IMG/VR virus record: IMGVR_UViG_3300045257_000057
Location: 1 to 28,926 of that record
DNA length: 28,926 nt
Reading direction: 5' to 3' (one strand)
Source: a virus
Below, one piece after another: positions 6,167 to 9,970 of the stretch; position 1 is the stretch's first letter; each line of letters starts with the position of its first letter. Both the position numbers and the translations under genes were made by a program. The notes under the pieces are model-generated. The model made no database searches, had not been told where the DNA came from, and saw only the letters and a list, made by a program, of their open reading frames with translations.

Positions 6167-7698
6167 TGGTCGACAAGCCCACCACTCTTTACGGCCCGGA
6201 CGGGCTACCGATCACGCGCGAGGTGCTGACGGCGGAGATCGCCGGCCCGACGATCAGCGGCGTGCGCTCGCCGATCGGCGGCTATCCGGGCGACGGGCTC
6301 AATCCGCGCCGGCTCGCATCGTTGCTGCGCGAAGCCGATGTCGGCGACCCGATGCGTTATCTCGAATTGGCCGAGCAGATCGAAGAGCGCGACCCGCACT
6401 ATGCCGGCGTGCTCGGCACGCGCAAGCGCTCGGTCGCGCAGCTCGAAATACAGGTCGACGCCGCGTCCGACGATGCCGTGGACGTGGCGCGCGCCGACAT
6501 GGTGCGCGCGTGGCTCGATCGCGACGAGCTGCAGGACGAAATCTTCAACATGCTCGACGCCATCGGCAAGGGCGTGAGCTGGACTGAGATCATCTGGGAC
6601 ACGAGCGAAGGCCAGTGGGTGCCGGCGCGGCTCGAATGGAGAAACCCGCGCTGGTTCCGCTTCAAGATCGAAGACGGCACGACGCCGCTATTGCGCACCG
6701 ACATAGGCTATGCGCCGCTGCCGCCGTTCAAGTTCATCAGCGCGGTGATCCGCGCGAAGTCCGGCCTGCCAATCCGCTCCGGGCTCGCGCGCCTCGCGAC
6801 GTGGATGTGGATGTTCAAGGCGTTCACGCAGCGCGACTGGGCGATCTTCACGCAGACGTTCGGCCAGCCGGTGCGCGTCGGCAAATACCAGAGCGGCGCG
6901 ACCGAGGCCGACAAGGACACGCTGTTCCGCGCGGTTGCAAATATCGCGGGCGACTGCGCTGCGATCATCCCGAACTCGATGCTGATCGAGTTTATCGAGT
7001 CGAAGGATGTCGGCGCCGGCAGCGACCTGTTTCTCAAGCGCGCCGACTGGCTCGACCAGCAGATGTCGAAGGCGGTGCTCGGCCAGACCGCGACCACCGA
7101 CGCGATCGCGGGCGGCCACGCGGTCGGCAAGCAGCACCGTCAGGTGCAAAAGGACATCGAGCGCGCCGACGCGAAGGCGCTTTCCGCCATCCTCAATCGG
7201 GACCTGGTGCGGCCGTGGATCGACCTCAACGAGGGTCCGCAGAAAGGCTATCCGCGGCTGCGCATCGGCCACGGCGACGATCGCGATGTGAAGGCGATCG
7301 TCGACAGCGTCGTCGAGCTGGTGCCGATGGGAATGCGCGTGCAGGCATCGGACATGCGCGACCTGCTCGGCTTGTCCGATCCCGATGCTGGCGCCGAGCT
7401 GCTCGTCACACCGGCCGCGCCCGTCACGATCGCGCCGTCGCTGCAATCGACGCGCTCGCGGCGCGACGCGATCGGCGCGCTCGCCGATGATGCCGAGAAG
7501 CTGCTCGATCCGGCGAACGATGAGCTGATCAATGGCGTGCGCGCGATCATCGATCGGTGCACGTCGCTCCAGCAGGTGCAGCGCGAGCTGACGAAATGGA
7601 AGCCGGCGCTTGCGCAAAAAAATCTCGCCGGGATGCTGCGCATGGCGCTGGTGATGGCGCAGCTCGCGGGCCGCGAAGACATCGCGGAGAGCAAATGA
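6166..7698 (+). CDS. Portal protein, DUF935 (Mu gp29-like)
   Basis: 510 residues. I chose the ATG at 6166 because it forms TGATG with the terminase stop and has SD GAGGAAG about ten bases upstream; the frame is open further back but that part overlaps the terminase. Family features include the YLELAEQIEERDPHYAGVLGTRK segment, a WTEIIWDTSEGQWVPARLEWRNPRWFRF stretch, and AIFTQTFGQPVRVGKY followed by an NSMLIEFIESKD segment. Twelve copies should form the head vertex channel through which DNA is packaged and to which the tail joins. The stop overlaps the next gene (ATGA). Confidence 0.9.
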   Translation: MVDKPTTLYGPDGLPITREVLTAEIAGPTISGVRSPIGGYPGDGLNPRRLASLLREADVGDPMRYLELAEQIEERDPHYAGVLGTRKRSVAQLEIQVDAASDDAVDVARADMVRAWLDRDELQDEIFNMLDAIGKGVSWTEIIWDTSEGQWVPARLEWRNPRWFRFKIEDGTTPLLRTDIGYAPLPPFKFISAVIRAKSGLPIRSGLARLATWMWMFKAFTQRDWAIFTQTFGQPVRVGKYQSGATEADKDTLFRAVANIAGDCAAIIPNSMLIEFIESKDVGAGSDLFLKRADWLDQQMSKAVLGQTATTDAIAGGHAVGKQHRQVQKDIERADAKALSAILNRDLVRPWIDLNEGPQKGYPRLRIGHGDDRDVKAIVDSVVELVPMGMRVQASDMRDLLGLSDPDAGAELLVTPAAPVTIAPSLQSTRSRRDAIGALADDAEKLLDPANDELINGVRAIIDRCTSLQQVQRELTKWKPALAQKNLAGMLRMALVMAQLAGREDIAESK

Positions 7699-8465
7699 TC
7701 CGTCGCGTCGCGAGTGCGTGCCCGCATTGCGGCGGCGCGCAGCGCGCGCTGCAGGCCGACGGCGCGAAATCGTTTTCGGTCAACCCGGTCGAAGCGATCG
7801 ACTTCCTGAAGAAGAAACTCAACGTTCCGACCGCGCATTGGACAGATCTGTGGCAAGAGCAGCATTCGGACGCGTTCACCGTCGCGGGCGCGACCACCGA
7901 TGCGCTCGTGTCCGACTTCCACGACGCGGTGAACAAGGCGATTGCTGACGGCTCGACCTTGGAAGATTTCCGCAAGGACTTCGACACGATCGTCGAGGAT
8001 CACGGCTGGAGCTACAACGGTTCGCGCGGCTGGCGCTCGCGCGTGATCTTCGAGACCAACATGCGCACCGCCTATGCGGCGGGCCGCTGGGAGCAAATCC
8101 AGCAGGTCAAGGATGACCGGCCGTATCTGCGCTACGTCGCCGTGATGGACGATCACACGCGGCCCGAGCACGCGCTGTGGAACGATACGGTGCTGCCGGC
8201 AGACGATGAATGGTGGCTGACGCACTTCCCGCCGAACGGCTGGAATTGTCGTTGCTCGGTGCAGAGCCTCAACGATCGCGACCTCGAACGCTATGGGCTG
8301 ACGGTGAACGCGAAAGCGCCGCCGAGTGAGATGGTCGAGCGCACCATCAATACGCCTGACGGCGCGCGCACCGTGCTCGTACCGGAGGGCATCGACCCCG
8401 GCTTTGGCTATCGGCCGGGCGCGCCGCCCGCCGAGGCGATCGACGCCGCGCTAAAGGGCCGGTAG
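7695..8465 (+). CDS. Minor head morphogenesis protein, Mu F/gp30-like
   Basis: 256 residues from the ATG at 7695, overlapping the portal stop. The N-terminus has a CPHCGG knuckle (residues 9-14). The core carries the SPP1 gp7/Mu F signature: TNMRTAYAAGRWEQIQQ, YLRYVAVMDDHTRPEHALWN and HFPPNGWNCRCSVQSL. Members associate with portal and procapsid and may help DNA ejection. The open frame extends upstream to 7557, but that part lies within the portal gene and lacks the family start. This is the last gene before the 338-base gap, so it may end the first late unit. Confidence 0.87.
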   Translation: MIRRVASACPHCGGAQRALQADGAKSFSVNPVEAIDFLKKKLNVPTAHWTDLWQEQHSDAFTVAGATTDALVSDFHDAVNKAIADGSTLEDFRKDFDTIVEDHGWSYNGSRGWRSRVIFETNMRTAYAAGRWEQIQQVKDDRPYLRYVAVMDDHTRPEHALWNDTVLPADDEWWLTHFPPNGWNCRCSVQSLNDRDLERYGLTVNAKAPPSEMVERTINTPDGARTVLVPEGIDPGFGYRPGAPPAEAIDAALKGR

Positions 8466-8803
8466 CTAACCCCCGGTTCCGCGGGCCTGACGGTCAAACC
8501 GGATTCGGCCGTGGGGCGCTTTGACGCCCCCGGACCCGACGACACCCCGTCCTAACCCCTTCAGGCGGCCGTAAGGCGTTGAAAACCGGTTGAACGCCGG
8601 GCCTGTCGGCTGGCGAGACCGGCCGAAACCGGCCGGCCGGGGTCGAGGGCGAATTTCAGCATCAGGGCCAGCTGGTCACCGCTCGCCGGATCGTGTCCGG
8701 TAGCGCCCCGATTCGGGGCCGGGCTGCCTATGGGCAGCCACACGTGCGGGGCTGACACCGTGTCAGGGTTACGAGTCGAGGCTGATGCGACGATTGTCGC
8801 CCC
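8466..8803 (+). promoter_or_regulatory. 338-base gap rich in inverted repeats; candidate PI-type late promoter
   Basis: No convincing gene on either strand. At least eight dyads follow each other: GGGGCG/CGCCCC (8513-8530), GGCGTT/AACGCC around AACCGGTT (8575-8598), CCGGCC/GGCCGG (8619-8636), CCGGA/TCCGG (8686-8700), GCCCCGA/TCGGGGC (8705-8719), GGCTGCC/GGCAGCC (8722-8739), CTGACAC/GTGTCAG (8752-8766) and GCGAC/GTCGC (8787-8800). The position before gene I is where Mu has its late promoter PI. The CTGACAC/GTGTCAG dyad resembles those in the lys upstream gap. No T-rich tract follows the early stems, so a classical terminator is not obvious. It could hold promoter, terminator and a structured leader together. 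Confidence 0.5.
8752..8766 (+). promoter_or_regulatory. 15-base perfect dyad, candidate activator operator
   Basis: CTGACAC-C-GTGTCAG has perfect 7-base arms around one centre base and ends 37 bases before the gene I ATG. The right arm with flank (GTGTCAGGGT) is identical to 1100-1109 in the lys upstream gap. Assignment to the Mor-like activator is inference. Confidence 0.45.
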
Positions 8804-9970
8804 ATGCCGGGCCACGACGCAACAGCGAATATCTTTCTCGCGCTTAACGCCACGTCGGGTGTTCCCGACTGGATCATGCTGCTGCCGGCCGGCGACAAGA
8901 TCGACACGAACGATGGTCGCGGCCCGTATCGCGTGGAGAACCGCGCGAAGCTGATGGCGGACAGCCTGCAGTCCGCGGGCGGCAAGCTGCCGATCGACGA
9001 AAATCACGCGACCGATCTCGCCGCGCCGCAGGGCGGGTCGTCGCCGGCGCGCGGCTGGGTCGTCGAGCTGCAAGAGCGCGAAGGCGCGATCTGGGGTCGC
9101 GTCGAATGGACCGACGCTGGCCGCACGCTGGTGAGCGACAAGGCTTATCGCGGCATCTCCCCCGTCATCATGGTGCGCAAGGCGGACGGCAAGACGATCG
9201 ATTTCATCGCGCGCGCCTCACTCGTCAACACACCGAACCTGCGTGGCATGGCCACGCTTCACTCCGAAGGAGCCAACATGGACCTCTTGAAGCAGCTTTG
9301 CGAAATGCTCGGCATGCCGGCCAACAGTGACGCCGCAGCGGTGATCGCCAAGGTGAAGGGCCTCAACACGAGCGCATCGGCGAATGCCGCGCAGCTCGCG
9401 CCGATCGCCAAACTGGCCGGCTTGAAAGAGGACGCCGATGCGGCGGCCGTGCTGCAGGCGGTCACGACGCTCGCAACTGCTACGAAGACGACGCTCGCGC
9501 CGATCGCGAAGGCCGCGGGCCTCAAGGACGATGCGGACGCCACCGCCGTGCTCAATGCCGTGACCGCGCTCGCGACCGCCGCGAAGGGCGCCGAAGGCGT
9601 CGTCGCGCTGCAAGGCGAACTGGCGACGCTCACCACTTCGCACAACGCGCTGCTGAAGAGCATCGCGACCGACAAGGCCACCGCGTTTGTGGATGGCGCG
9701 ATCAAGGCCGGACGCGTCGGCGTGAAGCCGGTGCGCGATCACTACATCGCGCGCCACGCAATCGACGCAGCATCCGCGGCGGCAGTTGAGAAGGAAATCA
9801 ACGCGATGCCGATCCTCGGCCCGTCCGGCGCGCTGGTGACGCCGCCCGCGCGGCTGGAGAACGGCGAAGTCCAGCTCAACGCCGAACAGCTCGGCACCGC
9901 GAAGCTGCTGGGCCTCGATCCGAAGGCCTACGCCAAGACGCTCGCCACCGAACAGCAGCAGGCGGCCTGA
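8804..9970 (+). CDS. Mu I-like head maturation protease with in-frame scaffold
   Basis: 388 residues. The N-terminal half (1-158) matches the Mu gpI/peptidase U35 type: a DWIMLLPAGDKIDT start, PIDENHATDLAAPQGGSSPARGWV with a His in the expected catalytic region, and the AYRGISPVIMVRKADGKTIDFIARASLVNTPNL block carrying the nucleophile-type Ser region. It should cleave scaffold and itself during capsid maturation. The C-terminal half (159-388) is the scaffold, also made separately from 9278. The first in-frame start after the upstream TGA at 8783-8785 is this ATG. It has no SD; a GCGAC/GTCGC stem (8787-8800) sits where the SD should be. Confidence 0.88.
   Translation: MPGHDATANIFLALNATSGVPDWIMLLPAGDKIDTNDGRGPYRVENRAKLMADSLQSAGGKLPIDENHATDLAAPQGGSSPARGWVVELQEREGAIWGRVEWTDAGRTLVSDKAYRGISPVIMVRKADGKTIDFIARASLVNTPNLRGMATLHSEGANMDLLKQLCEMLGMPANSDAAAVIAKVKGLNTSASANAAQLAPIAKLAGLKEDADAAAVLQAVTTLATATKTTLAPIAKAAGLKDDADATAVLNAVTALATAAKGAEGVVALQGELATLTTSHNALLKSIATDKATAFVDGAIKAGRVGVKPVRDHYIARHAIDAASAAAVEKEINAMPILGPSGALVTPPARLENGEVQLNAEQLGTAKLLGLDPKAYAKTLATEQQQAA
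9278..9970 (+). CDS. Nested capsid scaffold protein (Mu Z-like), internal start of gene I
   Basis: An in-frame ATG at 9278 is preceded by a strong SD, GAAGGAG (9266-9272), five bases upstream; it would give a 230-residue scaffold identical to the C-terminal part of the protease gene. Mu does the same with I and Z. The protein is Ala-rich and helical, with two 33-residue tandem repeats (residues 40-72 and 73-105, each starting LAPIAK.AGLK.DADA) and a diverged third before them. The C-terminal part (KPVRDHYIARHAIDAASAAA) is typical of these scaffolds. The contrast between the strong internal SD and the SD-less outer start suggests scaffold is made in excess of protease. Confidence 0.75.
   Translation: MDLLKQLCEMLGMPANSDAAAVIAKVKGLNTSASANAAQLAPIAKLAGLKEDADAAAVLQAVTTLATATKTTLAPIAKAAGLKDDADATAVLNAVTALATAAKGAEGVVALQGELATLTTSHNALLKSIATDKATAFVDGAIKAGRVGVKPVRDHYIARHAIDAASAAAVEKEINAMPILGPSGALVTPPARLENGEVQLNAEQLGTAKLLGLDPKAYAKTLATEQQQAA

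Follow-up and report, generated by a model that had tools for sequence, protein, structure and literature searches.

The question raised by this locus is what a 338-bp interval crowded with inverted repeats is doing between two head genes of a Mu-like phage. The interval (8466-8803) lies in the window, that is, the whole 28,926-nt stretch of an IMG/VR virus record analysed here, in which features are on the + strand unless stated otherwise and the interval itself is given no strand. Upstream it adjoins MuF, the minor head gene (7695-8465; PF04233); on its 3′ side it is bounded by the gpI-type gene (8804-9970), which had been read as a capsid protease gene and indeed matches PF10123. With the order portal-MuF-gap-gpI, it is the equivalent of the Mu G-I interval, where the gyrase cut site, a predicted terminator and the promoter PI are located.

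Perfect dyads with arms of at least 6 bp and a loop of at most 8 occur at 8513-8530, 8619-8636, 8619-8640, 8629-8640, 8705-8719, 8722-8739 and 8752-8766, namely 7 in the gap vs 1.36 in dinucleotide shuffles (0/300 reach 7), and for arms of 7 bp or longer the count is 5 vs 0.44 (0/300 reach 5). The excess seen in the original prediction is thus confirmed, and no other 338-bp stretch of the window is richer in dyads. The count of "at least eight", however, depends on the threshold, as three of the seven overlap one another and 8686-8700 has arms of only 5 bp, while the plan of 7-base arms around a single base was rightly described for 8705-8719 and 8752-8766. The reading of the gap as lacking a credible gene also stood on both strands, wherein its ORFs gave zero Pfam matches and nothing convincing against PHROGs (best E 0.019, a weak match to an out-of-frame ORF). 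A BLASTN comparison of the gap with phage records gave zero matches; Rfam, even at a permissive threshold, returned only chance matches; a tRNA search of the gap found none, and neither did a search for T-tailed terminators, so that no GC stem followed by a T-run, the mark of an intrinsic terminator, occurs there. The RNA folding excess is modest and the same on both strands (z -2.1). The dyads of the gap do not form one structure.

Relatives were collected by protease and MuF similarity, with gpI start codons picked by likeness to the query protein and not by the -10, and the geometry counts are based on 129 non-redundant gpI upstream sequences, which share ancestry, so that the percentages below do not represent independent trials. 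When the gap was compared with all relative loci by BLASTN, essentially 8745-8801 (57 bp) aligned, plus two short blocks. A small conserved block after MuF, AAACCGGATTCGGCCG (8496-8511), is identical in relative L038 and similar in relative L002. The conserved stretch reads CTGACACCGTGTCAGGGTTACGA, about 20 bp, GATTGT, six bases and then ATG, and the arrangement of operator, -10 and gpI start is present in every operator class of the relatives: the dyad of the window clade is CCTGACAC-n-TGTCAGGGTTACGAATCC, and at the equivalent place the Rhodobacter-type phages carry CCGCAAACCGTTGTGGGTGTTTT and the Rhizobium-type phages GCCCGCCTTGGCGGGCATGAT. The pattern CCGCA-N4..6-TGCGG was also searched in Rhodobacter-type phages and host genomes, where the host matches were too numerous to use. 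In two relatives (L047, 1865-2031; L004, 2337-2515), several extra half-sites CCCTGACAGG are scattered in the gap upstream of PI. Conserved stems, the check that had been asked for, were thus found for the operator dyad and for none of the remaining stems, whose lack of conservation leaves a structured RNA, riboswitch or small RNA unindicated. Neither the small RNA, for which Rfam matches are also zero, nor the pac-type site proposed for the gap is supported, since the other stems are not conserved. The PI-type promoter, originally set aside as too little to account for the gap, is what the conserved part amounts to, being an operator dyad, a -10 and the gpI start.

The geometry of this part is that of a promoter. 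The operator dyad, CTGACAC-C-GTGTCAG (8752-8766), is centred at -45 from the gpI ATG, and the predicted -10 hexamer GATTGT (8792-8797) shows conservation of A at -11 and T at -7. Of the 129 upstreams, 63% have a dyad centre at -44.5 or -45.5 vs 0.9% in the background, and perfect arms of at least 5 near -45 are found in 50% vs 2.6% in shuffled sequences; a clear dyad at -45 is missing in about a third. The A at -11 is present in 62%, the T at -7 in 56% and both in 48%. The distance from the dyad centre to the -10 A is 33.5 bp in 46/68 pairings, and when the dyad lies at -45.5 the A is mostly at -12, at -44.5 it is at -11, and at -47.5 at -14. Therefore, the dyad and the -10 shift together relative to the ATG, which indicates a DNA promoter geometry rather than an RNA element tied to translation. 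A search for a sigma-70 -35/-10 pair at the gpI promoter found none, there being no -35 match. Over the -10 lies a short, weakly conserved dyad, GCGAC-GATT-GTCGC (8787-8800), and 12% of the 129 upstreams have at least 6/7 pairs in a dyad centred at -9. Many relatives show a comparable symmetric flank at PI; at the lysis promoter, the flank is seemingly weaker.

Most positions of the operator arms show three to four Watson-Crick types per pair, and G-T cells are few apart from one position. The proposed test for compensating changes therefore succeeded strongly for the operator dyad, but not as evidence of an RNA stem, because the dyad keeps its distance to the -10 rather than to the start codon, and the compensating changes hence mark a symmetric DNA site. 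Such symmetric changes are as expected for a protein-binding site with drifting specificity. Based on these features, 8752-8804 is likely to be a PI-type late promoter, with an activator-bound dyad, the -10 GATTGT and a leaderless gpI mRNA, and this one dyad of the gap very probably serves as the binding site for the late-gene activator that the phage encodes.

The predicted binder of the dyad is encoded within the window. The gene at 553-948 is assigned to the Mor/C family of late transcription activators, its PF08765 score of 24.3 bits lying just below the cut-off of 24.9, and in a profile family that includes the window sequence it groups with RcapMu27 and with the candidate activators of the relatives (E 5e-62); a profile built from its product and RcapMu27 gives one strong match per complete relative. 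The window has several features of a C-activated promoter of the Mu type, namely a Mor/C-family gene, a dyad centre at -45 and a -10 without a good -35. In Mu, the late promoters Plys, PI, PP and Pmom carry related dyads as C-binding sites (PMC4287176; PMC4461284), and they resemble the predicted window promoter in combining an upstream dyad for a Mor/C-family activator with a -10 lacking a good -35, PI likewise sitting in the interval before gpI. The Mor dyad of the Mu middle promoter Pm is centred at -43.5 (PMC4287176), and Pm resembles the gpI promoter in having a -10 hexamer, no -35 and nearly identical spacing, although Pm drives the Mu activator region, whereas the promoter described here precedes late structural genes. 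The dyad sequences differ from those of Mu and vary by phage group, and two operator sites were found per phage here, compared with four in Mu.

The second of these sites follows the activator gene. As with the Mu late promoters, relatives share the site with the lysis promoter region: in most complete relatives, a single further copy of the PI dyad lies beyond the 3′ end of the activator gene, on the strand of that gene and often within about 30 bp of its end, and in G004, G011, G015 and G016, where the activator gene is inverted, the second dyad is inverted along with it. A second-best match to the PI dyad with at most 3/20 mismatches is found in 10/17 complete phages vs 28/680 random 20-mers, and at most second sites an A occupies the offset that the -10 A has in the PI of that phage; in G006 and G010, the search found no second site. 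For G005, G010, G020, G026, G035 and RcapMu, in which automatic centring misplaced the dyad in this comparison, the register was read by eye. In the cultured phage RcapMu, an identical 20-mer stands directly after the Mor/C-like gene and before gpI, the same one-dyad-at-each-place arrangement as in the relatives. The window itself offers a weak candidate only, CTGTCGCTGTGTCAG (1092-1106), a putative Plys site located after the activator gene and before the lysozyme gene (1215-2441); it has the 15-nt plan of 8752-8766 and a position matching the second sites of the relatives, but its 5/20 mismatches are by themselves at chance level. A candidate Plys -10, TTTATT (1132-1137), has the PI spacing to the right arm, with T replacing A at the key position. 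A search of the window for a second exact copy of its 23-mer found none.

The placement of the promoter has a consequence for gpI. A -10 at -12 to -7 is expected to place the RNA start on the A of the ATG of gpI at 8804, and the dyads would consequently fall outside the gpI mRNA; the structured leader suggested for the gap is therefore contradicted by the -10 geometry. Before 8804 there is no Shine-Dalgarno-like motif, nor any in-frame ATG, GTG or TTG between the stop at 8783-8785 and 8804. Among the 129 relatives, a Shine-Dalgarno-like motif is found at the gpI start in 3%, whereas at the same loci the major capsid gene has one in 91% and the gene between gpI and capsid in 98%. Judged from these sequences, gpI looks leaderless, unlike that of Mu, wherein a ribosome-binding site lies about 10 nt before the ATG, and in roughly half to two-thirds of the about 130 related phages the dyad is predicted to be so placed that the RNA begins on the protease start codon. 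Leaderlessness is not universal, as a leader is present at gpI of both Mu and RcapMu, the latter with the Shine-Dalgarno AAGGA. In a few phages the annotated gpI start appears to be incorrect: in DMS3 (L313, before 2052) and D3112 (L317, before 2919), an in-frame upstream ATG after a -10-like ACCAT suits the gpI N-terminus better, and in POA1180 (L319, 1986) the annotated TTG has an ATG 9 nt downstream.

Inside gpI, the nested scaffold (Z) has a start at 9278 with the Shine-Dalgarno GAAGGAG (9266-9272), and an internal start with Shine-Dalgarno in codons 130-230 is found in 119/129 relatives (92%) vs 46/258 control segments; protease/scaffold pairs that use an internal start are known from Mu and from Pseudomonas Mu-like phages. 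Leaderless mRNAs are common in alphaproteobacteria, with 375 in Caulobacter and 171 in Sinorhizobium (PMC4117421), and resemble the gpI prediction in having the start codon at the RNA 5′ end without a Shine-Dalgarno, although those are experimentally mapped host genes and here the case is a predicted one, in a phage late structural gene. Caulobacter leaderless mRNAs are translated equally well as others, and a reduced protease output through leaderlessness is therefore one possibility among others.

The remainder of the gap differs from the promoter end in character. In relatives, the MuF-gpI interval is mostly longer, with about 470-1300 bp among the closer relatives, and its contents vary among gpG, minus-strand ORFs and non-coding DNA, which makes 8466-8745 a variable cargo slot. 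The inserted-element remnant of the original prediction holds loosely for this part, as a variable slot with differing minus-strand ORFs in several relatives. Minus-strand cargo ORFs are seen in L038 (2816-3217), L005 (2441-2884) and L004 (2563-2862), and those of L038 and L005 look mutually related (CPGC...DLR..DRHP...SCR.C motifs) and have zero PHROG matches. In the window, the gpG-type virion morphogenesis gene (PF05069; 12713-13261) follows the major capsid gene, whereas in Mu it is found between MuF and gpI. The dyads other than the operator, comprising the non-conserved 6-bp-arm dyad (8513-8530), the non-conserved overlapping GC-rich dyads (8619-8640) and the three back-to-back dyads 8686-8700, 8705-8719 and 8722-8739 in a non-conserved part without a T-run, sit in this non-conserved slot and are probably no component of the promoter device, and the tandem dyads of 8619-8640 and 8686-8739 may be local terminators or remnants.

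Whether the slot also carries a central strong gyrase site around the element E2, TTNAA-N6-TTNAA (TTGAAAACCGGTTGAA, 8579-8594), is a separate matter, as such a site would add to the promoter and not replace it. The gap is equivalent to the interval holding the strong gyrase site (SGS) of Mu, and TTNAA-N6/7-TTNAA occurs in both: the Mu element, TTTAAACCGGTATTTAA (L315, about 1416-1432), lies near the gyrase cut site, on the side of its right arm, for which DNA-bending repeat motifs are described (PMC10052514). E2, which precedes gpI in many alphaproteobacterial Mu-like phages, is enriched in the MuF-gpI interval, being present within 900 bp upstream of gpI in 26/124 loci vs 4/123 control stretches, and in -240..-80 in 8.5% vs 0.3% of shuffled sequences. 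These counts come from simple patterns, an unguided weight matrix having been dropped after it drifted onto coding sequence, apparently gpG. Yet E2 is confined to a minority of relatives and the resemblance to Mu is a single case, so that a gyrase site here is somewhat unlikely, and E2, as its possible part, is a lead rather than a result. In L032, L033 and L086, TTTAAACG-type repeats are present in the interval before gpI.

Other functions of the operator dyad itself fare less well than activator binding. A repressor of lysogeny or a host regulator could use a symmetric site close to a promoter to silence gpI, and a minus-strand cargo ORF begins near the dyad in L038 and L005; however, a centre at -45 leaves the -10 and the start unoccupied, the position matches that of the Mor dyad in Mu Pm, and the second copy sits after the Mor/C gene, all of which make a repressor operator improbable. 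That the dyad is the intrinsic terminator of the upstream operon is also quite improbable: its frequent location within about 30 bp after the activator gene, the several T following it in Rhodobacter-type phages and RcapMu, and the predicted terminator immediately before PI in Mu would suit such a role, but the window class has no T-run, and a terminator needs neither a stem sequence common to two sites per phage nor a fixed 33.5 bp to the -10. Termination may still be a second function of the dyad in some phages. The control of gpI translation by RNA hairpins, as structured leader or small RNA, is very improbable, because, despite the compensatory variation of the dyad pairs and a fold energy z of about -2 on both strands, the dyad spacing is fixed to the -10 and not to the ATG, G-U pairs are rare at most dyad positions, the dyad recurs before the lysis block with an equal -10 offset, Rfam matches are zero and the remaining stems are not conserved.

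For the activator-dependent promoter, we propose the following mode of action. First, a dimer of the Mor/C-family activator would bind the dyad at 8752-8766, 45 bp upstream of gpI, and recruit RNA polymerase to the -10 GATTGT at 8792-8797. Transcription would then start on the A of the gpI ATG to give a leaderless mRNA, on which the protease would be initiated in the absence of a Shine-Dalgarno, whereas the nested scaffold would use its internal Shine-Dalgarno start on the same RNA, and the protease-to-scaffold ratio may be affected thereby. We suggest, tentatively and as somewhat less probable than the contrary, that many alphaproteobacterial Mu-like phages couple an activator-dependent late promoter to the protease start codon, with a leaderless protease and a Shine-Dalgarno scaffold on one RNA as a conserved setting of this ratio. 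A literature search, with most subscription journals outside its scope, found no report of this arrangement, and a Pseudomonas phage transcriptome paper offered no mapped start of late-gene transcription that could serve as a test.

In conclusion, the rule of a dyad, 33.5 bp, the -10 A and the ATG locates the operator of the Mu-like late activator purely from sequence in all operator classes seen here, and, as it pairs operators with activators, Mor/C specificity becomes testable by comparison. It further predicts that a late structural gene would be widely translated from leaderless mRNA beside a nested scaffold whose ribosome site is normal, and this combination of leaderless protease and nested scaffold would bear on the balance between protease and scaffold in phages.
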